64,000 bases of DNA from Drechmeria coniospora (lineage: Eukaryota > Ascomycota > Sordariomycetes > Hypocreales > Ophiocordycipitaceae): the NCBI RefSeq assembly GCF_001625195.1, contig NC_054390.1, positions 248,001 through 312,000 of the forward strand. The letters are read 5' to 3'. Shown here piece by piece: positions 4,709-61,327 of the stretch. Both the position numbers and the translations under genes were made by a program. The notes under the pieces are model-generated. The model did not search any database. It worked only from the letters and a program-made list of their open reading frames with translations, and was not told the DNA's origin. Each line of letters starts with the position of its first letter. The first letter of the stretch is position 1.

Positions 4709-5908
4709 CTTACCTATGTTACGGTACTTATTCACAACTCCCGACCTACTAGGTACTTGGCATTACTGTACTTTGTGGGTACAAGTTGTGTTACGGCGCT
4801 GCCCTGCTTCTACATGTACTCGCAAGTACCCGCACTTACACCTGCAAATGCATCCACATCGCATCGCCTCCGTATTTGCAGGCCTCGGGCTCCTACGTAG
4901 GCATGCATGCACCTCCATGAACCATCCGGCACATAAAGGAGCTCCTGTCGGAATAGCACTTGTACCTACGGTGCTCCGCACTTTAATCATGCTCAGGTGT
5001 GCATGTCCATGGGCCTGCCCGTCCTTGTCGTCGGTCTGGGCCTTGCGATCAATCACTTGGTCGAGGTTGGTCGCATCTTGGCGTGAATCCTACGCCCTCA
5101 AGGCAACTCGGCGCAGCTCGCGACGAATACGTGTGCTTTACGGAGTACTGTATATGCAAGTACATGCACTTGCAACTGCCCTTGGACGACACCGAGTGCA
5201 TCCAAGTGTTGACATCGGTCTTGATATAGGTATTCCGTGCTTGCGAATGCAGGCAACCTCATCCTTCCCCCTCCGTCCCACGCACCCACAGCCATTGCTT
5301 CCCTGTACCTGCACGGGAGGGACAACGTGCAGTCTCCCGAATCTTTGGTGTTGATTGTGCATGTATTTCTGTGCGAGTGCTTCTACATTTATTCCCAATG
5401 AAATTGCCCGTACCCTACCTGCTGTGTGGGTGGTAAAAGACGCCTCTCACTTCGCCCTGGTCCAGCGCTGGACGATTGTGACGTTGGTTGTGTGCAAGGA
5501 TCATCATGTCTCCTGCGCACAGCGAACTGCTTCATTGTCAATTATTTATTAATATTATTTACTTGCCCAAGTAGGCACGGAGCACGGAGCAGATCTATCC
5601 GAGTCTGTCGTCAGGTCATTCCGTCGTCACACGTGACAAGGGCCGTGACAAGTAGGGCCAGGCGACGAAACACTTTTCGCTTGCCATCGACGCTTCACAG
5701 AGGCACAGTCACGCTTTGCATCGAGCTTCCGACTCAACTCTTCAACCCTCCGCAAGGTGCGTATGGACAGTTGCACGCACGCACGCACAAGCCTACTTGG
5801 GTGTACTTGAGTATTCCTTGCCATGCACGTGTTACACACATGTGCAATGGTGCAGGCAAGCATCGTTACTCCGCAATGACTGCACAGCTACCAAGCACCC
5901 CTACTCGC

Positions 5909-6066
5909 AGCGATGTCGACGATGGTAGGGAACCTACTCGCAGCGATGTCGACGGTGGTAGGGAACCTACTCGCAGCGATGTCGACGGTGGTAGGGAACC
6001 TACTCCCAGCCATGTCGACGGCGGTAGGGAACCTATTCCCAGCCATATCGACGGTGGTAGGGAATA
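5909..6066. repeat. 33-bp minisatellite, about 5 copies
   Basis: The unit GATGTCGACGGTGGTAGGGA plus 13 bp is repeated head to tail. Later copies diverge (CTCGCAGC becomes CTCCCAGC, then ATTCCCAGC). Because 33 is a multiple of three and the unit has few stops, both strands stay open, which explains the long spurious reading frames here. Confidence 0.9.
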
Positions 6067-6380
6067 TCGACAGGGATCGCAACCCTCGTCGACCCAGTCC
6101 GCGTACGAGCTCGTGGCACATGCCGCGAGGTGGTCATGCCACTCGTCCGTGGGCGGATACGAGTGGCGAGGCAATGTGCCCGGGCCAAAATCGTGCCAAG
6201 CCCGCCTCGCGAGTGCGGGAAGCTCCCATCCCATCGTCGTCCGTCACGGCCAAGGAGAACGCGGCGTTCTCGGCACGCATGGCCGGAGACGGCCTCGTTG
6301 CGCCTTGCCCCCCGCCGGCGCCGTCGAGCTCTGCAGGCGCACCCAGCTATCGCCGGTGTGCCGTCGTGCTCGCCTCGGAC

Positions 6381-7270
6381 AAGGTCGGCGTGGCAATGAT
6401 TCGACAGGATGCCAAGCTCCCGGCTCCAACCGGATCGACGCTCATCAGCCATCCACGGCATCATCTCGGTTGCTGCACCGCCGGCACGCAGGTGCCTGCT
6501 GGGCGTACACGTACATGCTACGGAAGGTCGGCTTGGCAATGATTCGACAACATACCAAGCTCCCGGCTCGACGCTCATCGTGGCAGCCATCCACGGCATC
6601 ATCTCGGCTGCTGGGCGTACACGTACTTGCTACGGAAGGTCGGCGTGGCAATGATTCGACAGCATGCCAAGCTCCCGGCTCCAACCGGCTCGACGCTCAT
6701 CGTGGCAGCCATCCACAGCATCATCTGCTGCTGGGCGTACACGTACTTCTACGGAAGGTCGGCGTGGCAATGATTCGACAACATACCAAGCTCCCGGCTC
6801 GACGCTCATCGTGGCAGCCATCCACGGCATCATCTCGGCTGCTGCACCGCCGGCACGCAGGTGCCTGCTAGACGTACACGTACTTGCCACGGAAGGTCGG
6901 CGTGGCAATGATTCGACAACATACCAAGCTTCCGGCTCGACGCTTATCGTAGCAGCCATCCACGGCATCATCTCGGCTACTGCACCGCCAGCACGCAGGT
7001 GCCTGCTGGGCGTACACGTACTTGCCACGGAAGGTCGGCGTGGCAATGATTCGACAACATACCAAGCTCCCGGCTCGACGCTCATCGTGGCAGCCATCCA
7101 CGGCATCATCTCGGCTGCTGCACCGCCGGCACGCAGGTGCCTGCTAGACGTACACGTACTTGCTACGGCAGCATGCCGGCACGCAGGTGCCTGCTAGGCG
7201 TACACGTACTTACTACGACAGCACCCGGCACGCAGGTGCCTGCTGGGTGTACACGTACCACGGCAGCACG
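6381..7270. repeat. ~120-139-bp tandem repeat array downstream of the ABC gene
   Basis: Starts of the shared segment GGCGTGGCAATGATTCGACA recur near 6387, 6530, 6643, 6761, 6899 and 7037. The full unit is about 139 bp. Shorter units lack an internal block containing CCGGCACGCAGGTGCCTGCT. The array ends in ~50-bp sub-repeats containing GGCACGCAGGTGCCTGCT. No gene is evident. Confidence 0.85.
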
Positions 7271-24769: not shown

Positions 24770-25240
24770 CTGCTGCGGCGCCGGAGCTGTTGCTCGCACG
24801 GATCCGGCACACGGCTGCGGCGCACGGCTCCGGCACTACTGTGGCGCACGGCTCCGGCACACTGCTGCGGCGTACGGCTGCGGCGCACGGCTGCGGCGCA
24901 CGGCTCCGGCACACTGCTGCGGCACTGCTGTGGCGCACGGCTCCGGCACGGCTCCGGCATACTGCTGCGGCGCACCCCTCCGGCACACGGCTCCGGCACA
25001 CGGCTCCGGCACTGCTGTGGCGCACGGCTCCGGCACACTGCTGCGGCGCACCCCTCTGGCGCACGGCTCCGGCACGGCTTCGGCACACTGCTGCGGCGCA
25101 CCCCTCCGGCACACACCTCCCGCGCACGGCTCCGGCACGGCTCCGGCACACCCCTCCGGCACGGCTCCAGCACACCCCTCCGGCACGGTTCCGGCACACT
25201 GCTGTAGCGCACCTCCGGCACACCCCTCCGGCACGGCTCC
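24770..25240. repeat. 12-bp-based repeat (CGGCTCCGGCAC / CTGCTGCGGCGC)
   Basis: A dense mixture of related 12-bp units CGGCTCCGGCAC, CTGCTGCGGCGC and CCCCTCCGGCAC over ~470 bp. The unit length keeps all frames open on both strands. No start, codon bias or domain argues for a gene. Confidence 0.85.
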
Positions 25241-25306
25241 GGCAATGGTCGAGCACATGTACATGCATGTACCAGCTAACGGACCACCCATCAACAACTG
25301 CCGCCC

Positions 25307-31807: not shown

Positions 31808-32530
31808 TCTCCTCAATTCAACCCAGTCTCCAATTCATCGCAGTCTTCAATTCATCGCAGTCTTCAATTCAACGCAGTCTTCAATTCAACCCAGTCTCGA
31901 GTTCAACGCAGTCTCTAATTCAACCCAGTCTCCAATTCACCCCAGTCTCCAATTCACCCCAGTCTCCAATTCAACGCAGTCTTCAATTCAACGCAGTCTC
32001 CAATTCACCCCAGTCAATTCACCCCAGTCTCGAATTCAACCCAGTCTCGAGTTCAACCCAGTCTCGAATTCAACCCAGTCTCGAATTCAACCCAGTCTTG
32101 AATTCAACCCAGTCTCGTATTCACCCCAGTCTCGAATTGAACCCAGTCAATTCACCCCAGTCTCGAATTCAACCCAGTCAATTCACCCCAGTCTCGAATT
32201 CAACCCAGTCAATTCACCCCAGTCTCCAATTCAACCCAGTCAATTCACCCCAGTCTCCTCCAATTCACCCCAGTCAATTCACCCCAGTCTCCAATTCACC
32301 CCAGTCAATTCACCCCAGTCTCCAATTCAACGCAGTCTTCAATTCACCCCAGTCTCCAGTTCAACCCCGTCTTCAGTTCAGCCCCGTCTTCAATTCAACC
32401 CAGTCTCCAGTTCAACCCTGTCTTCAATTCAACCCAATCTTGAATTCAACCCAATCTCCAATTCACCCCAGTCTCCAATTCAACCCAGTCTCCATTTCAC
32501 CCCAGTCAATTCACCCCAGTCATCAAGTTT
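31808..32530. repeat. 17-bp minisatellite (AATTCAACCCAGTCTCC), >40 copies
   Basis: The array alternates 17-bp units with 14-bp deletion units AATTCACCCCAGTC. Since 17 is not a multiple of three and the unit lacks stops, several frames stay open for hundreds of bases, giving spurious NSTQS/FNPV-type proteins. It ends about 60 bp before the amidoligase-like start codon. Confidence 0.92.
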
Positions 32531-36565: not shown

Positions 36566-39124
36566 CGCGAATCGATGCTACGTCGACGCACGGTGAAGGG
36601 TGACGGCGGTGAAGGGTGACGGGGGTGCGGAAGGGATTTTGGAACAAGGCCGGTCTTCATATCTGCGGACGCACCTTCACCTTTGGTAATATGAACGCCT
36701 ACGCAGAGTATATCTCTAGCCCGTCCCAACGGGAGCATTCATCTTTTCATGACCTCGTCAAGCTATTCAAACCTGCCCCCTGCCGACTCCATCAAGCCCC
36801 GCCACTACGGAGCAGAGTTTGGAGCAAAAATAGTCGTGACACTTACACGTACACCTACTCTTGCATGTCCTTGCAACCTATTACTTGCTAATTTACAAGT
36901 ACACTGCAAGTCGGTGCAGTACGGAGCACGAGGATCTGTATCCATGTGCCGAAGCAAGTACGCTATGGGTGCATTATTACCTACAAGTAATCATACTCGT
37001 ACCTGTACGGTCACATCACCTACCACACTTATAGGTGTACTCGTACTTTTATGCGCAGGCTCTACAGGCTCTAGCATGGGCATCATTATCATTATCACTA
37101 GAGTACTGCTGTGTATGGATGCTTACTTGGGTACGTAACGGAATACGCACTTATATGTACAGAACATGTAGATGGTTGAGCAGGTCCAAGTAAACCTTGG
37201 TGTGCTGTCCTGTACTGTAAGGGGTTTGTAAGTAAGTAGGTGTGTGTAAGTAGGTGTAAGTAGGTTTATTTAGTTACCAATACTTATCTACGGCGTCCTC
37301 CGTACTACGAGCGGCAATAGTCACGAGGACCAGATCACGAGCTACTATTGCTATTACTTGACGAGAATGGACCGACGCAGATAGGTCAGCTCAATTACGA
37401 AATGAATTCGTCGCCTACTGTAGAGGTAGTGTACAGTAGAGCTGGTGCAGATATGCGGCCTATACCCATGGATTGGCTCCAAACGATGGCCAACATTAGC
37501 TGAGCCCCTGATACTTGACAGTACAGCAGCGCACTATTATTAAATAATAGTCACCAGTCGTCCTCCTCATCCGGCAACTGATATTTCAGCCATCTGCGCA
37601 TTTACAACTACATGTACGTAACAGATGCCAACCGCAAGCCAGCACCAGCCCCACTGACAGGGGCCGGGGCCGTTTTTTCAATCCACCCCTGTGAATAGTA
37701 TAACATAACCGAATGCTAACGAGCGATGCATGTGCTGTAAGTAGTTGTATTACTTGTACTTTCCAGCAGTCATGCTCTTGGTTGTACTAAACCTGTACAA
37801 GTGCTTGTCAGTGGATCGAGTAAGAGTTTACTCCAGACTCCGGGTGTATTTGTACTATCTTGCCCGGAGAAATTACGTGGAACTATAAAAGTAAGTACAC
37901 CATAGTACTGCAAGTACTGCAAGTAAGCAAGTACTTTGTCCTGTAATAGCTAGTTATTACTACAAGCATATTGGCACACAGTTATTACAAGCATATTGGC
38001 ACACAGTTATTACTACAAGTATTTTGGCACAGAATTATTACTGCAAGTATATTGGCACATAGTTATTACTACAAGTACAGTATATTGGCACAGTTATTAC
38101 TACAAGTATATTGGCGCAGAATTATTACTACAAGTATATTGGCACACAGTTATTACTACAAGTACAGTATTTTGGCTCAGAATTAATACTACAAGTATAT
38201 TGGCACACAGTTATTACTACAGGTACAGTATATTGGCACAGAGTTATTACTGCAAGTATATTGGCACACAGTTATTACTACAAGCATTTTGGCACAGAGT
38301 TATTACTACAACTATATTGGCACACAGTCATTACTACAAGTATGTTGGCACACATGAAAGATGGAAGACGCCAACTCTACTTGTACGTTGTGCACAGGTA
38401 GAAATTCATGGCCATACTCGTCATAATTATTATCACGCCTACTGCAAGTACTGTATAGTATCATATGCTATAATACCTCACGGGACCGTAGCTTCATCTA
38501 CAACTACCTGTACCCCTACTACTCCTACAAGCACTCTTGTCAAGTATTTGCTTCGACATGTACTGTAGAGAGCCATAATACACGTACCTACATCCGCAGT
38601 ACCTTCACCTGCAGTGCAGTTCACTTCGATACACCCATCGTACAATGTGCGTGTGCAGTGCTTGTGCTCCTTTCTGACAGGCCCTCTACGGCCTACGTGC
38701 TACCCACGGCAGAGTAGTCCTTCTCCGCATCATGTTACATACCTGTAGCATACTCAAAACTCAAGTACACCTTCACCTGTGCTTGCCATCATCATGTACG
38801 TAATTGATAGACTAGTAAGATATGAGAACCAGAAAGAGAGAACGGGTTAATACCGCGACCTCTATACCTTTCTGGAGAGGACCGTGGATCTGCGGATGGC
38901 CCAAGCACGGCTGCCATATCCACGCGGGGCATAATAATACAGCATGTGGTTTCTTACGTCGACCGATTTTCAGGTCACACGGATTGCTGCGAGTGTTAGC
39001 TGACCCCTTTCTCGCCGACATAGCAACATCCTGCTATTATATCGGCTTCTCCCTCGCGCAGATACCGATCCGAGGCCGGCCCAACTTCAACCCTGAGCTG
39101 CGCTGCAAGCGTCGACTCGCCACC
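36566..39124. other. Gene-free AT-rich region upstream of the enterotoxin-like gene
   Basis: AT-rich, GTAC-rich DNA without a supportable gene, including a 28-bp minisatellite. A TATTATATCGG sequence lies about 85 bp upstream of the chosen start of the enterotoxin-like gene. Confidence 0.65.
37955..38350. repeat. 28-bp minisatellite (AGTTATTACTACAAGTATAT...), ~13 copies
   Basis: The unit is AGTTATTACTACAAGTATAT followed by TGGCACAC. Some copies carry a 6-bp insertion (ACAGTA) or lack two bases. No spacers separate the units, so it is not a CRISPR array. Confidence 0.93.
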
Positions 39125-43256: not shown

Positions 43257-43690
43257 GGTCAGGCTGATGGCCGGGCGGCGAGGCGAGGGTGCTGGACGCG
43301 GCGAGGCGTCAACGGGCCGACGTCTGATGACGGGGACGGCACAAGATGCAAAGGTCAGGCTGGTGGCCGGGCGGCGAGACGAGGGTGCCGGAGTCAATGG
43401 CCCGGCGTCTGATGACGGGGACGGCGCGAGATGCAAAAGTCAGGCTGATGGCCGGGCGGCGAGGCGTCAACGGGCCGACGTCTGATGACGGGGACGGCAC
43501 GAGATGCAAAGGTCAGGCTGATGGCCGGGCGGCGAGGCGAGGGTGCTGGAGTCAATGGCCCGCCGTCTGATGACGGGGACGGCACGAGTTGCAAAAGTCA
43601 GGCTGATGGCTGGGCGGCGAGACGAGGGTGCTGGACGCGGCCAGGCGTCAACGGCGCGGCGTCTGATGACGGGAACGGCACGAGAATCGA
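43257..43690. repeat. 73-97-bp tandem repeat at the 5' end of the MCTTHV gene
   Basis: GTCTGATGACGGGGACGGCA starts at 43322, 43407, 43480, 43564 and 43661. Each unit also contains CAGGCTGATGGCCGGGCGGC. One unit lacks a ~12-bp GAGGGTGCTGG block. The array begins directly at the start codon and covers the probable 5' UTR and core promoter. Confidence 0.88.
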
Positions 43691-52567: not shown

Positions 52568-55263
52568 TCAGAGCTCGATGCCAGCCTCAGCCATCTGCAT
52601 GCCGTACTGCAGTCGAGTGAGCGTCTGCTTCCGCACCGAGGCAAAGGTTGCTTACCTTCTTGAGGCGAATCGCGTTGATGGTGATGAAGCCAGACTATGT
52701 AAAACCTGTGAGCAAACCGACATCAACGAGAGCGTCCAACCATGACTTACAGTCTCGGAGGGATCAAAGGTGGTGAGAGAATCCATCGACGCATCCTCCT
52801 CCGAGTAGAGCTTCTCCTCCGAGGTACGGCCCAGAACGTAGGCGTTGCCCTTGTACAGGAGGAGGCGAACCTCGCCATTAACCTGGTAATCGGGTCAGCG
52901 CACGCGCGCTGTTTCCAGCCAGCTCTCAAACGTACGCGCTCCTGAGAAAAGTCGAGGCTCGCTACAATCAGGTCAGCCGAGTCATTCCTCTACTAACGAG
53001 AGCGACATACGCTGCAAGAAGGCCCTTTCGGGCGAAAAGTAGAGGCCGTTGTAGAGCAGCTCGGACCACTGCTTGCTCAAGTTGTCTCGAAGGGAGCGAA
53101 CACGGCCGTCGAGAACACTGGTGCCATCAGCACAGGCAACAAACGGCGAGGGGTGCTCGCATCACTCACAGGCCCTCGATCGAAATATGAGCAAGGCGAA
53201 GGATGGTCATGCACGGGGCGTCATCTATAGATCTGTTAGCAGTTGACATTGGCAGTTCCGAGAGCACCGATGACATACAGCAACCACGGCTCTTGAGGCC
53301 GATGAACCTGACAAAGCGTGCAAAGTCAGCTGTGGGAAGACTGTCATTGTTCCCGGCAGTGTCGGCTGTACCTGTTCTCGACAATGTCCTGCCATGACGC
53401 GTTAGCCCGAGGGCACGAGGCCCGTTTCCACAGACAAGACTCACGATTCGGCCGATGCCATGCTCCTTGCCGAGAGCATTGAGAAAGTTGAACAGCTCGA
53501 GGGAGCCGGTGACGGTCTGCTTGGGAGTCTGAACCTTGACCGGAAGGCCCTTCTCAAAGTGGACAGTGATTTCGAGAGGTGTATCAGGCGCCTTGAGCGG
53601 GCTCACGGTGCGGGTCCTGCCGCGTGCTTAGCACGTTCTGTGCCACTCATTCGGGACGGGTTTCGCTTACCACATATCCTCAGGCGGAGAGGTGTTTGGG
53701 TCCTCAAGCATGCCGGCCTGTACCTGTCAGTATCAAGGTTTGGGTGCAGGCGCCAGTTCAAAGTACCTCGTAGGAACAATGGGCCAGGTTGTCGTCCATC
53801 GAGTACTTATTTTCCATCAGCAACGACATCTGGATCAAAATGCGTCAATGGACCAACCGGCTTCGCGCGAGTCGACGTCACAGGGATGCCTGGAATAATT
53901 TAGCACATTTCGCAAATCAGGATGAAACCAACGGTGAGCAGTACCCTTCTCGGCGGCGTAGTCGAGGAGATCGTTGCGTCCCTGTGAGGTCTTGTCAGCC
54001 AATGCTTCAACAGTGGCATCGTGAGAACAAACCTGGAAACGCTTATAGAAAAGAGGATCGCGCCTGGGCCAACATTGTCAGCCTACAGCCGGCACTCAAG
54101 CTTGGAGGTTGACGGGTCGTCGTACCATGGGGCGATGACCTTGATGGCGGGGTTGATGGTCAAATATGCCAGCTGCTCGAGTTAGTACCCCGAGGACATG
54201 CAACTCTCGTCGATTGGGTGTCGAGGAGCGGTGTCTCAGCCGGGTAATACGTGCCTCGAATCGAACCTGATCATTGCTGAGGATGGTGTTAGCCACATCA
54301 CATCATTTGAGCGTTTCCCAGCACACCGCTCACCCTTTGCCGGTCTACGGTGATGATTAGCCAATCCCAAGTCAAAAAAGAGGCGATTGGGTATCATGCT
54401 CAAGACTCACGCAACCGTGGGACACGAAATGGCAACTATACATTCCGTGTTAGCGCGGGCTCATGTTAGGCCGCCCCGAACGTCATGTACGAACCCCTCC
54501 TTCTCGGCGGCCTTCATCATGCCACGGGCAATGACGGGCCGAGCCAAGCTGGTACCTGAAATGGCGTTAGCAAGAGTCCAGGCCCTCGTGAACAGGGCAT
54601 GCTGACCCAAAAGATACTGGTCTTCGTAGATGGCATTCTGCGCTGGTGGCGTAAGTGGGAGACAAGGGATCCAACTGGAGGGGGTCGACGGACGCATTGC
54701 ACAGCCTTCCAGCACAGCTCCCTGCCATCAAGTCAGCTCGTTGCAGACAGCGGACGGGTTTCGAGGCCGTACTCGACGAAAACCTTGCAAAGGTCATCGA
54801 TGATCACTATACGATTCGTTCCAAGTTCAGCAACGCTGCGTCATCGACAATCTCGAGTTGGTCAGTCGGGTCGTACTCTTAGTTGCACCGATCTTGAGAG
54901 CTGCACTCATCGTGTTAGCGCCGGCGTCATCTACGACGATGGATCAGGGAGGGGACCTCACCCTTGGCCTCCACGGCAGCCCAGTCTTCCTCCTGACCAA
55001 CATTGGCCAGGTAGCAGCTTGGAAGGTGTCAGCATAGCTTCCTTTGGTCCGAGTAGAAGAAGCGGGCTGGCTACTGACACAACTTCGTAATCCTGCTCGA
55101 GCAGCCAAGCCAAGATGGTGCTCGTGTCGAGTCCACCGGAGTAGCTAAAGTACGATTAGTCGGAGCAACAAAGACACGCCAATAACGTCGACGGTCCATC
55201 ATGACGCCGGGCGGGGTTCCGTCAGACTCACGCCAAGCACACCTTGCCCTTGCTGCCGGCCAT
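52568..55263 (-). CDS. ARG1: Argininosuccinate synthase, 26 exons
   Basis: Ligates citrulline and aspartate with ATP to argininosuccinate in arginine synthesis (cytosolic). The spliced protein is 412 aa, the normal length, collinear with the family: AYSGGLDTSTI (pyrophosphate-binding loop, residues 11-21), TSLARPVIARGMM, HGCTGKGNDQVRFE, RFQGRNDLLDYAAEKG, SMDDNLAHCSYEAGMLEDP, APDTPLEITVHFEKGLPVKV, FIGLKSRGCYDAP, ending YGMQMAEAGIEL. Exons: 55232-55263, 55079-55144, 54962-55017, 54877-54900, 54773-54806, 54694-54721, 54607-54637, 54495-54555, 54411-54435, 54334-54344, 54255-54276, 54126-54172, 54033-54063, 53945-53981, 53858-53889, 53767-53805, 53671-53717, 53445-53616, 53372-53388, 53279-53307, 53170-53224, 53011-53117, 52936-52961, 52751-52882, 52656-52694, 52568-52606. 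Introns are 49-87 nt with CTAAC/CTGAC-type branch points. One is GC-AG. Confidence 0.95.
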
Positions 55264-57298: not shown

Positions 57299-58690
57299 AT
57301 GGCGCCTGGCAACAGACAGTATACAACGCCTGGCAACAGGCCAGCCATGGCGCCCGGCAACAGACCGTATATGGGGCCTGGCGATAGGCCAGCAACAGGG
57401 CCTAACAACAGACAGGCCATGGCTCCTGGAAACAGACAGGCCGTGGCGCCCGGCAACAGACAGGCCATGGCACCTGGCAACAGACAGACCATAGCGCCTG
57501 GCAACAGACAGGCCACGGCTCCTGGCAACAGACAGGATATGGCTCCTGGCAATAGATCGGCCATGGCTCCTGGCAACAGACAGATGGCGCCAGGCAACAG
57601 ACAGGCCATGGCTGCTGGCAACAGACAGGATATGGCTCCTGGCAACAGGCAGGAGATGGCGCCAGGCAACAGACAGGATAGGGCGTCTCGCAACAGACAG
57701 GATATGGATCCTCGCAACAGACAGGATATGGCTCCTGGCAACAGGCAGGATAGGGACCCTCGCAACAGACAGGATACGGATCCTCGCAACAGACAGGATA
57801 TGGCTCCTGGCAACAGGCAGGATAGGGATCCTCGCAACAGACAGGATATGGATCCTCGCAACAGACAGGATATGGCTCCTGGCAACAGGCAGGATAGGGA
57901 CCCTCGCAACAGACAGGATATGGCGCCAGGCAACAGACAGGATAGGGCGTCTCGCAACAGACAGGAGATGGATCCTCGCAACAGACAGGATGTGGCTCCT
58001 GGCAACAGGCAAGATAGGGACCCTCGCAACAGACAAGATGTGGCTCCTGGCAACAGGCAAGATAGGGACCCTCGCAACAGACAGGAGATGGATCCTCGCA
58101 ACAGACAGGATGTGGCTCCTGGCAACAGGCAAGATAGGGACCCTCGCAACAGACAGGATGTGGCTCCTGGCAACAGGCAGGATAGGGACCCTCGCAACAG
58201 ACAGGATATGGCACCTGGCAACAGGCAGGATAGGGACCCTCGCAACAGACAGGATACGGATCCTCGCAACAGACAGGATGTGGCTCCTGGCAACAGGCAG
58301 GATAGGGACCCTCGCAACAGACAGGATATGGCTCCTGGCAACAGGCAGGATAGGGACCCTCGCAACAGACAGGATACGGATCCTCGCAACAGACAGGATG
58401 TGGCTCCTGGCAACAGGCAGGATAGGGACCCTCGCAACAGACAGGATACGGATCCTCGCAACAGACAGGCCATGCCTCCTAGCAGCAGACAGGATATGCC
58501 TCCTGGCAACAGGCAGGATAGGGACCCTCGCAACAGACAGGATACGGATCCTCGCAACAGACAGGCCATGCCTCCTAGCAGCAGACAGGATATGCCTCCT
58601 GGCAACAGACAGGCCATGGCCCCTGGAAACAGACAGGCCATGCCTCCCGAGAACAGACAGTCAATGGCGCCTGGCAACAGATCATCTACC
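57299..58690. repeat. 24-bp coding minisatellite in the OPT gene
   Basis: Units such as CAACAGACAGGATATGGCTC plus CTGG, and the variant ending AGGGACCCTCG, repeat about 57 times. Unit length is a multiple of three and free of stops on both strands, so copy-number change would alter protein length in 8-residue steps. The early units (57299-57520) are more diverged than the centre. Confidence 0.95.
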
Positions 58691-61327
58691 ATGCCGGAGA
58701 ATAGGCCAGCTACAACACGTGAGACCAGACCATCTGTGGTGCGTGGCAATGGGCCAGCCTTGGCGCGCGGCAACAAATCATCTTCAATGTTTGGCAAGAG
58801 GGCATACATGGCGCCTCGCCATTATTCTTCAAGCCTCACCTCCAACGTGGACATGTTCAATATCAGAAATCCATCCATGATTTCGACAACGTCACAGAAG
58901 AACACTACCATAGCTTCCTTGGAGCAGTTCGTCGACATGCACAAACACGATCCAAACTTTCCGCAAGATATCCTCATACGGGCTCGTCAATTTCTGGAGG
59001 AGAGACGGTCAGTTCCTCTTGATGGTGAAATCGACATCGAGTCTGCTCAATTCATTCTGGATTCTTTCGAAGATTTCAAGCAGCTCGCCATACACAGCTC
59101 CCCCTACCGGGAAGTCCGCGCCGTCGTGGACAACGTCGACGACCCGCTGCTTCCCGTCGGCACCTTCCGAGCACTCTTCATTGGCACGCTCTTTTCCATC
59201 CTGGGCACCGCCCTCCAGCAGCTGTTCTCGTTGCGGATGCCGAGCATAAATGTGTCGACCTACATGGTTCAGGTGCTCTCGATGCCGCTCGGCATGGCCA
59301 TGGCCCGATGGATGCCGGCGCACGAGTTTTCCTTGGCCGGTTGGAAATTCACGCTCAACCCGGGTCCCTTTAACCAGAAAGAACACCTTCTCGTCGTCAT
59401 GATGGCAAATGTGTCGTTTGAGGGAGCGGCTTCCGGTGCCTACGTCGTCAGGATCATCCAGCTTCTGAAGCTCGATCGCTTCTACGGCGAGCGAGTCCTG
59501 TCCGCCAACCTCCCCTGGCAGTTCATCACCCTCCTCGCCAGTCAGTTCATCGGGTACGGCTGTGCAGGACTGACGCGCCGCTTCCTCGTCTACCCTCCCG
59601 CCATGATATGGCAGAAGCCGCTCGCGAACATGGCCGTCACGAAGGCCTTGTTCGCCGACGAGGAACAGGCGGAGACGTTGCCCGCCGTCCGAGGCTGGTC
59701 CATGACGCGCCTCCGGTTTTTCCTCATCTGCTTCGGCGCCATGTTCGCCTGGTTCTGGGTTCCCAACTACCTCTTCGATGGCCTCGCCTTGTTCAACTGG
59801 CCGACCTGGTTCTCCCCCGGCAACGTCACCCTCGCGCTCATCGCCGGCAGCACGTGCGGTCTCGGCCTGAACCCGGTGCCGACGCTGGACTGGAACATTG
59901 CCGCCCATCTCAAGGACCCCATCGTGACGCCCCTCTTCAGCCTCATGAACTACGCCGCCGGCATGGCCGTCGTCGGCTTCGTCGCGGCGCCCATCATGTA
60001 CATGAAAAATGTCGGGAACGCAGGCTACCTGCCCATCAACAGCAACAAGGTGTACGACAACACGGCACAGCCCTACGACGTCCGCCGCATCCTGAACGAC
60101 GACCTGACGATCAACGAGACGGCCTACCGCAACTACAGCGTGCCGTGGCTGTCGACGACGCAGGTGCTCAACCTCGCGGCCGCCTTCGCCATGTACGTCG
60201 CACTTCCAATCTACATCGGGCTCTGGTACGGCCGAGACATCGTAAAGAGGCTGCGCTCCATCCTGAAGCGGCAAAGGCGGGAGGAGCAATTCAACGACGT
60301 TCACAACCGGCTCATGTCTGCCTATCCAGAGTGCCCCAGCTGTTGGTACCTTGCGCTGCTCGCCATCTCCATCCTGCTGGCCTGCCTGTCCGTCAGCCAG
60401 TGGCCGACGGACACGCCCGTCTGGGCCATCTGGGTGGCCGTCAGCTTCACCCTGGTGCTGCAGATCCCCGTCGGCATGCTCGCAGCCATGACGAATGTCG
60501 AGATTCCGGTGAGCATCCTTTCGATGGTCGTGGGCGGCTACGTCCTCGAGGGCAAGGTGATTCCGAACCTCATCTTCCGCATGTTCAGCTTCATGTCGAC
60601 GTCGCAGTCGCTCAACTTTGTGAGCAACTTGAAAATCGCCCACTACGCCAAGATACCGCCTCGCTGCGCCTTCAAGGCCCAGGTCTACGCGACTCTGATC
60701 GCCGGAATCGTTGCGCTCGGGGTCAACAACTGGGCGCTGGACAAGATCGACGGCGTCTGCGTCGAAGGACAGCGGCAGGGGTTCACCTGTCCGCAGGCGC
60801 ATGCCCACTTCTCGTCGTCCTTGCTGTGGTTCGTCGTGGGACCTCGGCGACTGTTTGGAAATGGCGGTCCATACAGGGCCATAACCTACTTCATCCCCCT
60901 CGGCGTCGTTCTTCCCGTCGTCGTCTACCTTGCCGCAAGAAGGTGGCCGATGTCTTGGTGGCGCAAGGTCAACGTACCGATCTTCCTCGCCGGGCCCATG
61001 GTATTTGCACCTTATAACTGGTCGTACATGCAAGGCGCCGTCGTCATTGCCATCTTCTTCAACTTCTTCGTCAGGAGGCGGTACACGGCATGGTGGGAGA
61101 GGTACGCATACGTCATGTCCGGTTCGTTCATGACCGCCATCGGCATCGCGAGTCTCATCATTTTTTTGGCGTTGCAGAGGAGGAATATTCGTCTTGATTG
61201 GTGGGGAAACACCATCTCTCACAGCGGAATTGACCAGGGCGGTTGGAAGGACGATCAAGGACAGACGGTGCGATGCGCCAATCTGAAGCTTCCAGCAAGC
61301 GGTCGTTTTCCTTCTGGGTTCAGATAA
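57299..61327 (+). CDS. OPT-family oligopeptide transporter with long repetitive N-terminus
   Basis: A 1342-aa single-exon proton-coupled oligopeptide transporter (OPT family, plasma membrane). Residues ~1-465 are a tandem array of about 57 eight-residue units NRQDMAPG / NRQDRDPR. Residues ~500-600 are a normal hydrophilic N-terminus, with the acidic VRAVVDNVDDPLLPVGTFR motif just before the first membrane segment, as in OPTs. The membrane core (~610-1310) carries family segments including SINVSTYMVQVLSMPLGM, FNQKEHLLVVMMANVSF, WFWVPNYLFDGL, NWPTWFSPGNVTLALIAGST, NYAAGMAVV, SLNFVSNLKIAHYAKIPPR and FAPYNWSYMQGAVV. Typical fungal OPTs are ~750-900 aa, so the N-terminal extension is exceptional. 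The start at 57299 lies at the array edge. A start near the later ATG at 58809 is possible. Confidence 0.9.
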   Translation: MAPGNRQYTTPGNRPAMAPGNRPYMGPGDRPATGPNNRQAMAPGNRQAVAPGNRQAMAPGNRQTIAPGNRQATAPGNRQDMAPGNRSAMAPGNRQMAPGNRQAMAAGNRQDMAPGNRQEMAPGNRQDRASRNRQDMDPRNRQDMAPGNRQDRDPRNRQDTDPRNRQDMAPGNRQDRDPRNRQDMDPRNRQDMAPGNRQDRDPRNRQDMAPGNRQDRASRNRQEMDPRNRQDVAPGNRQDRDPRNRQDVAPGNRQDRDPRNRQEMDPRNRQDVAPGNRQDRDPRNRQDVAPGNRQDRDPRNRQDMAPGNRQDRDPRNRQDTDPRNRQDVAPGNRQDRDPRNRQDMAPGNRQDRDPRNRQDTDPRNRQDVAPGNRQDRDPRNRQDTDPRNRQAMPPSSRQDMPPGNRQDRDPRNRQDTDPRNRQAMPPSSRQDMPPGNRQAMAPGNRQAMPPENRQSMAPGNRSSTMPENRPATTRETRPSVVRGNGPALARGNKSSSMFGKRAYMAPRHYSSSLTSNVDMFNIRNPSMISTTSQKNTTIASLEQFVDMHKHDPNFPQDILIRARQFLEERRSVPLDGEIDIESAQFILDSFEDFKQLAIHSSPYREVRAVVDNVDDPLLPVGTFRALFIGTLFSILGTALQQLFSLRMPSINVSTYMVQVLSMPLGMAMARWMPAHEFSLAGWKFTLNPGPFNQKEHLLVVMMANVSFEGAASGAYVVRIIQLLKLDRFYGERVLSANLPWQFITLLASQFIGYGCAGLTRRFLVYPPAMIWQKPLANMAVTKALFADEEQAETLPAVRGWSMTRLRFFLICFGAMFAWFWVPNYLFDGLALFNWPTWFSPGNVTLALIAGSTCGLGLNPVPTLDWNIAAHLKDPIVTPLFSLMNYAAGMAVVGFVAAPIMYMKNVGNAGYLPINSNKVYDNTAQPYDVRRILNDDLTINETAYRNYSVPWLSTTQVLNLAAAFAMYVALPIYIGLWYGRDIVKRLRSILKRQRREEQFNDVHNRLMSAYPECPSCWYLALLAISILLACLSVSQWPTDTPVWAIWVAVSFTLVLQIPVGMLAAMTNVEIPVSILSMVVGGYVLEGKVIPNLIFRMFSFMSTSQSLNFVSNLKIAHYAKIPPRCAFKAQVYATLIAGIVALGVNNWALDKIDGVCVEGQRQGFTCPQAHAHFSSSLLWFVVGPRRLFGNGGPYRAITYFIPLGVVLPVVVYLAARRWPMSWWRKVNVPIFLAGPMVFAPYNWSYMQGAVVIAIFFNFFVRRRYTAWWERYAYVMSGSFMTAIGIASLIIFLALQRRNIRLDWWGNTISHSGIDQGGWKDDQGQTVRCANLKLPASGRFPSGFR

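Follow-up and report, generated by a model that had tools for sequence, protein, structure and literature searches.

How does a conserved metabolic gene come to be divided into 26 exons in an ascomycete whose genes carry a mean of 2.0 introns, as the available part of PMC4792172 gives for Drechmeria coniospora? The question is raised by the argininosuccinate synthase (ASS) gene of this fungus, located in a 64-kb stretch of DNA (the window, C2:248001-312000) that was analysed in its entirety, alongside searches of the complete genome of 32.83 Mb in 28 contigs.

Structure and identity of the gene

Spliced protein alignment to the window places the gene on the minus strand at 55263-52568, with 26 exons and 25 introns encoding 412 residues, and the identical structure was recovered with all three guide proteins (Dactylonectria P0001, Claviceps P0002 and Colletotrichum P0015), without any indel relative to the guides. 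The start codon lies at 55263 and the stop codon ends at 52568, the coding sequence of 1236 nt plus TGA amounting to the same 1239 nt, or 412 residues plus stop, as in a previous sequence-only reading of the locus. The 26 exons averaging 48 nt of that reading proved correct to the base (mean 47.7 nt, range 11-172 nt, with 13 of the 26 at 36 nt or below), and the gene is, as it had stated, more than half intronic (54.0%). The introns measure 49-87 nt (median 56 nt), are distributed as 10, 6 and 9 over phases 0, 1 and 2, and display GT-AG ends in 24 of 25 cases, with GC-AG in intron 11 (54254-54173).

Following the minus strand, exon 1 (55232..55263, 32 nt) provides the start codon and exon 2 (55079..55144, 66 nt) carries YSGGLDTS. 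They are succeeded by exons 3 (54962..55017, 56 nt), 4 (54877..54900, 24 nt), 5 (54773..54806, 34 nt), 6 (54694..54721, 28 nt), 7 (54607..54637, 31 nt), 8 (54495..54555, 61 nt) and 9 (54411..54435, 25 nt), and by a microexon of 11 nt, exon 10 (54334..54344), which was recovered by spliced alignment as well as by the gene finder described below. Intron 11 separates exon 11 (54255..54276, 22 nt) from exon 12 (54126..54172, 47 nt), beyond which are exons 13 (54033..54063, 31 nt), 14 (53945..53981, 37 nt), 15 (53858..53889, 32 nt), 16 (53767..53805, 39 nt), 17 (53671..53717, 47 nt) and the longest, exon 18 (53445..53616, 172 nt). The remainder is formed by exons 19 (53372..53388, 17 nt), 20 (53279..53307, 29 nt), 21 (53170..53224, 55 nt), 22 (53011..53117, 107 nt), 23 (52936..52961, 26 nt), 24 (52751..52882, 132 nt), 25 (52656..52694, 39 nt) and 26 (52568..52606, 39 nt including the stop codon). 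A very short coding exon between introns is also described for Trichoderma Xlr2, with a microexon of 20 nt in the excerpt of PMC11121469, whereas here half of the exons of a single enzyme gene stay at or below the 36 nt given above.

Judged by sequence comparison, the product is an argininosuccinate synthase orthologue, collinear over its full length with solved and annotated forms: residues 3-403 of 412 align with residues 3-405 of the human enzyme (2nz2, E 1.8e-143), and the identity to the Claviceps orthologue is 94%. A Pfam profile run against the genomic DNA matched the gene over 28 model positions (E 6e-4). No second close ASS was detected by protein search of the genome (E <= 1), from which an equally fragmented distant copy could escape. 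The sole other match, 26% identical and situated in a 594-aa frame on C3 (L001:859-2607), in turn matches a solved nitrile synthetase (9leh, E 3.7e-158), and it was on this ground rejected as a second close copy; this divergent ASS-family protein has one predicted intron. Considering that the search returned nothing beyond the gene's own exons and this protein, the gene is probably the single ASS of the genome.

Splice signals and intron density

A two-strand gene finder was written for this analysis, with models for coding sequence, donor, branch and acceptor sites, and lengths. Trained on 234 kb including the ASS gene and seeded with the ASS introns, it returned 52568-55263 exactly, with 25 introns and the 1239-nt coding sequence. 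In an ASS-blind form, for which the training set was limited to other sequence of the same genome and the seed introns were invented, the finder again yielded the same gene ends and 25 introns, 24 of them identical to the homology model, with intron 7 (54606-54556, minus strand) differing in its ends. When the intron prior of the ASS-blind finder was tightened from 1/120 to 1/400, 22 introns were left, 19 being identical to the homology model. Exons that result from chance or over-fitting are ruled out by this ASS-blind prediction.

Compared with 121 other predicted introns, the 25 ASS introns do not differ in the scores of their donor (p=0.28), acceptor (p=0.33) and branch sites (p=0.70), while they are shorter (median 56 vs 69 nt, p=2e-5) and of lower G+C (0.55 vs 0.60). 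By their ends, donors and branch sites they are predicted to be ordinary spliceosomal introns of the U2 type. As the introns are short, their signals ordinary and the exons as small as 11 nt, each intron would be recognised as a unit by intron definition, and a normal spliceosome would remove all 25 to yield the 412-aa enzyme. Simulated retention of single introns caused a frameshift or a premature stop for 22 of the 25, and splicing errors should thus be removed or harmful. Coupled to the lack of a close second ASS in the genome search, this suggests that the accuracy with which the gene is spliced should be of consequence for arginine synthesis, in line with the previous claim that correct splicing is critical for it.

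To place the gene in its genomic context, genes were sampled from the 64-kb window and from further stretches of 90 kb and 80 kb, with 11 of a set of 20 stretches left aside for their low G+C, some of them also having withheld bases. Among 45 confident genes including ASS (score of 30 or more, CDS of 600 or more), ASS holds 20.2 introns per kb of coding sequence, while the 44 others have a mean of 1.15 per kb and of 2.1 introns, the densest reaching 4.2 per kb; the ASS gene is exceptional for its genome. Outside the confident filter, a 420-nt prediction (score 35) displays 9.5 introns per kb and a 627-nt prediction (score 0) 6.4 per kb. The ASS-blind run assigned 121 introns to the 90,723 nt of coding sequence in 53 other complete or partial predictions, equivalent to 1.33 per kb with at most seven per gene. 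These densities are the predictions of a simple program, and agree with the published 2.0 introns per gene. Within the window, 10 other predicted genes (one partial) have 0-4 introns each, fitting the 0-5 previously given for the neighbours.

The window has further peculiarities. A tandem repeat with units of 72 and 120 bp makes up the first ~460 residues of a long open frame at 57299-61327, and over this repeat five of six frames are open for at least 250 aa. A multi-pass membrane protein, which by eye resembles an oligopeptide transporter, is fused to the repeat in the same frame. Minisatellite arrays with periods of 13-158 bp are many in the 64 kb, at 5900-7258, 24795-25244, 31814-32507, 37952-38354 and 43298-43635.

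Is ASS the only such gene? The housekeeping genes that were checked had been picked after a Fusarium paper (PMC5677156), and thus represent a non-random sample. Argininosuccinate lyase, the next enzyme, occupies a single unbroken frame (positions 8-452 of 455), a probable ornithine carbamoyltransferase has two predicted introns, CTP synthase (C3:1197277-1198834) is covered by one frame over positions 74-526 and one small piece, and matches resembling asparagine synthetase consist of few long pieces. Adenylosuccinate synthase (C1:1001091-1003048, outside the window) appears as six pieces over 1,958 bp with stops inside four, the search returning an additional single piece elsewhere on C1. GMP synthase (C2:10126914-10128520) was found as four pieces with gaps in the genome profile search; for NAD synthetase (C3:9035906-9036419), TIGR00552 had no match in the genome and another model gave two weak pieces. 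Based on its pieces, adenylosuccinate synthase looks fragmented, as if also intron-dense, or else it may, like the genes for GMP synthase and NAD synthetase, be broken or poorly conserved. Extreme as it is, ASS may not be alone among the housekeeping genes of this genome in being intron-dense, and the one-gene framing of the sequence-only reading, while right about how exceptional ASS is, may in this respect be too narrow. A rule by which only genes of PP-loop ATP pyrophosphatases are dense was rejected for the same reason, adenylosuccinate synthase presumably not being a member of that group.

Dense genes have been reported from related fungi. In the accessible portion of PMC5677156, CTP synthetase with 15 introns and glutamine-dependent NAD+ synthetase with 12-14 are at the top of the list of Fusarium core genes (n=226). 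Similarly to ASS, they are conserved Hypocreales metabolic genes far above the average of 2.53 introns per CDS, with an intron number that is identical or almost identical across four species, and the median length of the core-gene introns (57 nt) is close to the 56 nt observed here; ASS differs in having 25 introns in 1.24 kb. CTP synthase, mostly one open frame in our genome, has 15 introns in the four Fusarium species according to the same portion, and the identity of the dense genes consequently differs between Hypocreales genomes. It is even conceivable that ASS stands at the far end of a small group of old genes for nucleotide and amino-acid ligases that are intron-dense in Hypocreales otherwise poor in introns, with adenylosuccinate synthase and perhaps GMP synthase and NAD synthetase as further members. 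The introns of this group would have been gained early and kept because splicing itself would set the enzyme supply, for example through nutrient-dependent intron retention and decay; we regard this idea as speculative and rather improbable.

The type A lineage and the gene models of relatives

ASS proteins were analysed in two trees with hand-picked rows, one of 57 rows (56 of 161 proteins) and one of 31 rows (28 proteins together with human and Thermotoga), with types B to E defined through identity to a single reference per type. Type A, the lineage of the gene studied here, has members from Hypocreales, Colletotrichum, Truncatella, a Hypoxylon and one Xylariaceae, the assignment of these taxa to orders being our assumption. 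It forms a clade with support of 100/100 on a stem of 0.29 changes per site, and in the 31-row tree, with the midpoint root between human/Thermotoga and the fungi, it is nested inside Pezizomycotina. The fork that joins type A to its neighbours has moderate support (94/90 with 57 rows, 88/91 with 31 rows). In type B, Ophiostomatales and Microascales group with Dothideomycetes and Lecanoromycetes, and Neurospora pairs with Anthostomella, apart from types A and B. The Sordariomycetes are in this manner split over three ASS lineages, which we take to be at odds with the species tree, and either an old duplication with loss or a transfer could explain the conflict. Trichoderma, Metarhizium and Beauveria are absent among the matches listed (120 cluster representatives per list), where Fusarium is represented by one species, F. 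sarcochroum. All four genera are well sequenced, and the models of those missing are perhaps badly broken or clustered away.

As a proxy for the introns of relatives we exploited errors in their protein models, mapped on the intron positions of this ASS gene, considering that shared tiny exons lead automatic annotation to skip exons or to retain introns at the same positions. Sixty annotated type A models were counted, the other six of the 66 type A proteins being from unannotated contigs and excluded, and the boundary count takes in neither indels that are terminal or below 3 aa nor two differences that recur at the N-terminus. The 60 models contain 48 distinct internal indel events (at least 3 aa) with 77 boundaries. 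Of these, 44 are no more than 1 aa from an ASS intron position, for an expected fraction of 14.6% (binomial p=7e-18, a value that is too small as the events are not independent, many coming from Colletotrichum and Claviceps models that are close relatives of one another), and 33 are off these positions. In total 19 of the 25 introns are touched by such errors, several by one model only, leaving six without support among the type A models. In the 98 other ASS proteins, 2 of 25 boundaries coincide with ASS intron positions (Fisher p=1.5e-5 vs type A, with non-A events not de-duplicated and their ends trimmed differently). Internal indels are also more frequent in type A (35 of 60 proteins) than in type B (13 of 53, a set that includes unannotated contigs; p=3e-4).

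Individual models are instructive. In seven Claviceps models the residues that are lacking, 179-192, are precisely those of exon 16; the Claviceps africana model, which belongs to these seven, is also missing exon 25, and exon 2 is absent from the Epichloe bromicola model; all three skips keep the frame. Insertions resembling retained introns of the right phase are present at the phase-0 intron 9 in Colletotrichum (V...Q) and at the phase-2 intron 10 in Hirsutella (W...S), while a 22-aa insertion at intron 24 has an initial V and ends in a codon that is not one for AG, some insertions thus being unlike whole retained introns. Errors on the same positions recur in Claviceps, Epichloe, Hirsutella, Neonectria and Colletotrichum, the latter with two type A copies, the models of both of which break at ASS intron positions. 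None of the models from the three type A Xylariales was informative. Six type A proteins from one source (lgn) are 410-418-aa frames on contigs, the longest of which measure 1,360-1,564 bases. A 2.7-kb gene would not fit on these, in the way expected of spliced mRNA.

Judging from where the gene models of relatives break, the intron set seems common to the clade of Hypocreales and Colletotrichum, and the errors in other lineages hint that ASS genes outside type A may be intron-poor. The sequence-only reading would have considered the structure unremarkable if most Pezizomycotina had the same intron set; the 2 of 25 boundaries in other lineages point away from such sharing.

Origin of the introns

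We think it likely that this working, probably single-copy ASS acquired most of its 25 ordinary U2-type introns in the type A lineage, on or near its long stem and long before the species arose, and that they would have been kept ever since. Some of the 25 may be ancestral, yet gain rather than retention is the likeliest reading, and gain on the stem the best explanation, as 20.2 introns per kb exceeds the 7.6 reconstructed for the fungal ancestor and the 0.98 of the Pezizomycotina ancestor (with a mean of 0.47 today; 1,444 ortholog sets, excerpt of PMC8476143), as well as the 6-7 per kb of vertebrate genes (excerpt of PMC3174169). Alternatively, the dense gene could be the remnant of an intron-rich ancestral gene, from which the other lineages lost introns. 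Such retention agrees with fungal ancestors that are reconstructed as intron-rich and with loss as the dominant process across fungi, as presented in the same part of PMC8476143, and in one lichen model (P0133) an insertion falls on the position of ASS intron 10. We nevertheless find it unlikely, with a density 2.7 times that of the fungal and about 20 times that of the Pezizomycotina ancestor, with type A nested inside Pezizomycotina, and with so few non-A model errors on the ASS intron positions.

A burst of intron gain that was recent and limited to this species or genus, driven for instance by introner elements, is in our view very improbable. The extreme density beside intron-poor neighbours and the shortness of the ASS introns would suit it, as would a mean similarity between the introns (6.95) above that of all 60 shuffles (mean 6.29, maximum 6.49) and a best intron pair with 12 exact shared bases (E 0.003). 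Shared branch sites, which are lost on shuffling, would however account for the small excess of mean similarity, and the best pair score of 15 is within the shuffled range of 10-16. Furthermore, no part of the gene has a second genomic match (simple repeats and common words skipped), the direct repeats across the junctions (1-5 long) resemble those of other introns (mean 2.2, maximum 6), and the models of relatives break at the same places. It is on these shared positions that a burst confined to the species was rejected. The similarity search proposed in the sequence-only reading for introners came out negative, with no family found by the genome match search or among ASS intron pairs compared with the 60 shuffles, and an introner origin was accordingly dismissed. 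Introner-like elements of fungi are, in the excerpts of PMC4457414 and PMC9860276, also a route to many new introns, from which our case differs by the lack of clear similarity among the ASS introns and of other genomic matches. An origin by tandem duplication was likewise abandoned in view of the ordinary junction repeats; old introns would have lost the repeat that marks such an origin. Of the two origins previously offered, burst or ancestral retention, the former is thus unlikely as a recent, species-level event given the shared error positions, and the latter unlikely as the sole cause given a density above that of the ancestors, with old gain on the stem being favoured.

Gain on the type A stem is compatible with an added cause, namely that it followed a horizontal transfer or an intronless retrocopy, which we deem possible though doubtful. 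The distribution of Sordariomycetes over three ASS lineages and the long stem of type A are congruent with this, and there is a precedent in the alpha-amylase of Agaricomycotina, of bacterial origin, with 8-22 introns (mean 13.3) against 3.8-5.7 per gene in the excerpt of PMC3584928. On the other hand, no donor lineage is seen in the trees, old duplication with differential loss explains them equally well, and the fork linking type A to its neighbours has the moderate support noted above. As in the alpha-amylase, a single gene is far denser than its genome (20.2 vs 1.15 per kb for ASS) and the origin of the introns is not identifiable, but in the excerpt the hosts are basidiomycetes rich in introns and a transfer was inferred, and here the host is an intron-poor ascomycete. 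Our literature search for ASS introns and intron-rich genes returned nothing on this ASS structure among the matches listed. Gene-specific massive intron gain and dense Hypocreales genes are already known, as far as the excerpts of PMC3584928 and PMC5677156 extend, and ASS adds a new extreme case.

With roughly three times the intron density of vertebrate genes, by the range in PMC3174169 cited above, in a genome that averages about two introns per gene, ASS allows causes of intron density acting on a single gene to be told apart from those acting on the whole genome. If the intron set is shared and as old as the models of relatives suggest, it would explain the internal indels in 35 of the 60 annotated relatives, and also why genomic profile searches nearly miss the gene, as with the 28 positions matched by Pfam. 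The gene would then offer a natural test of why introns persist against a general trend of loss.
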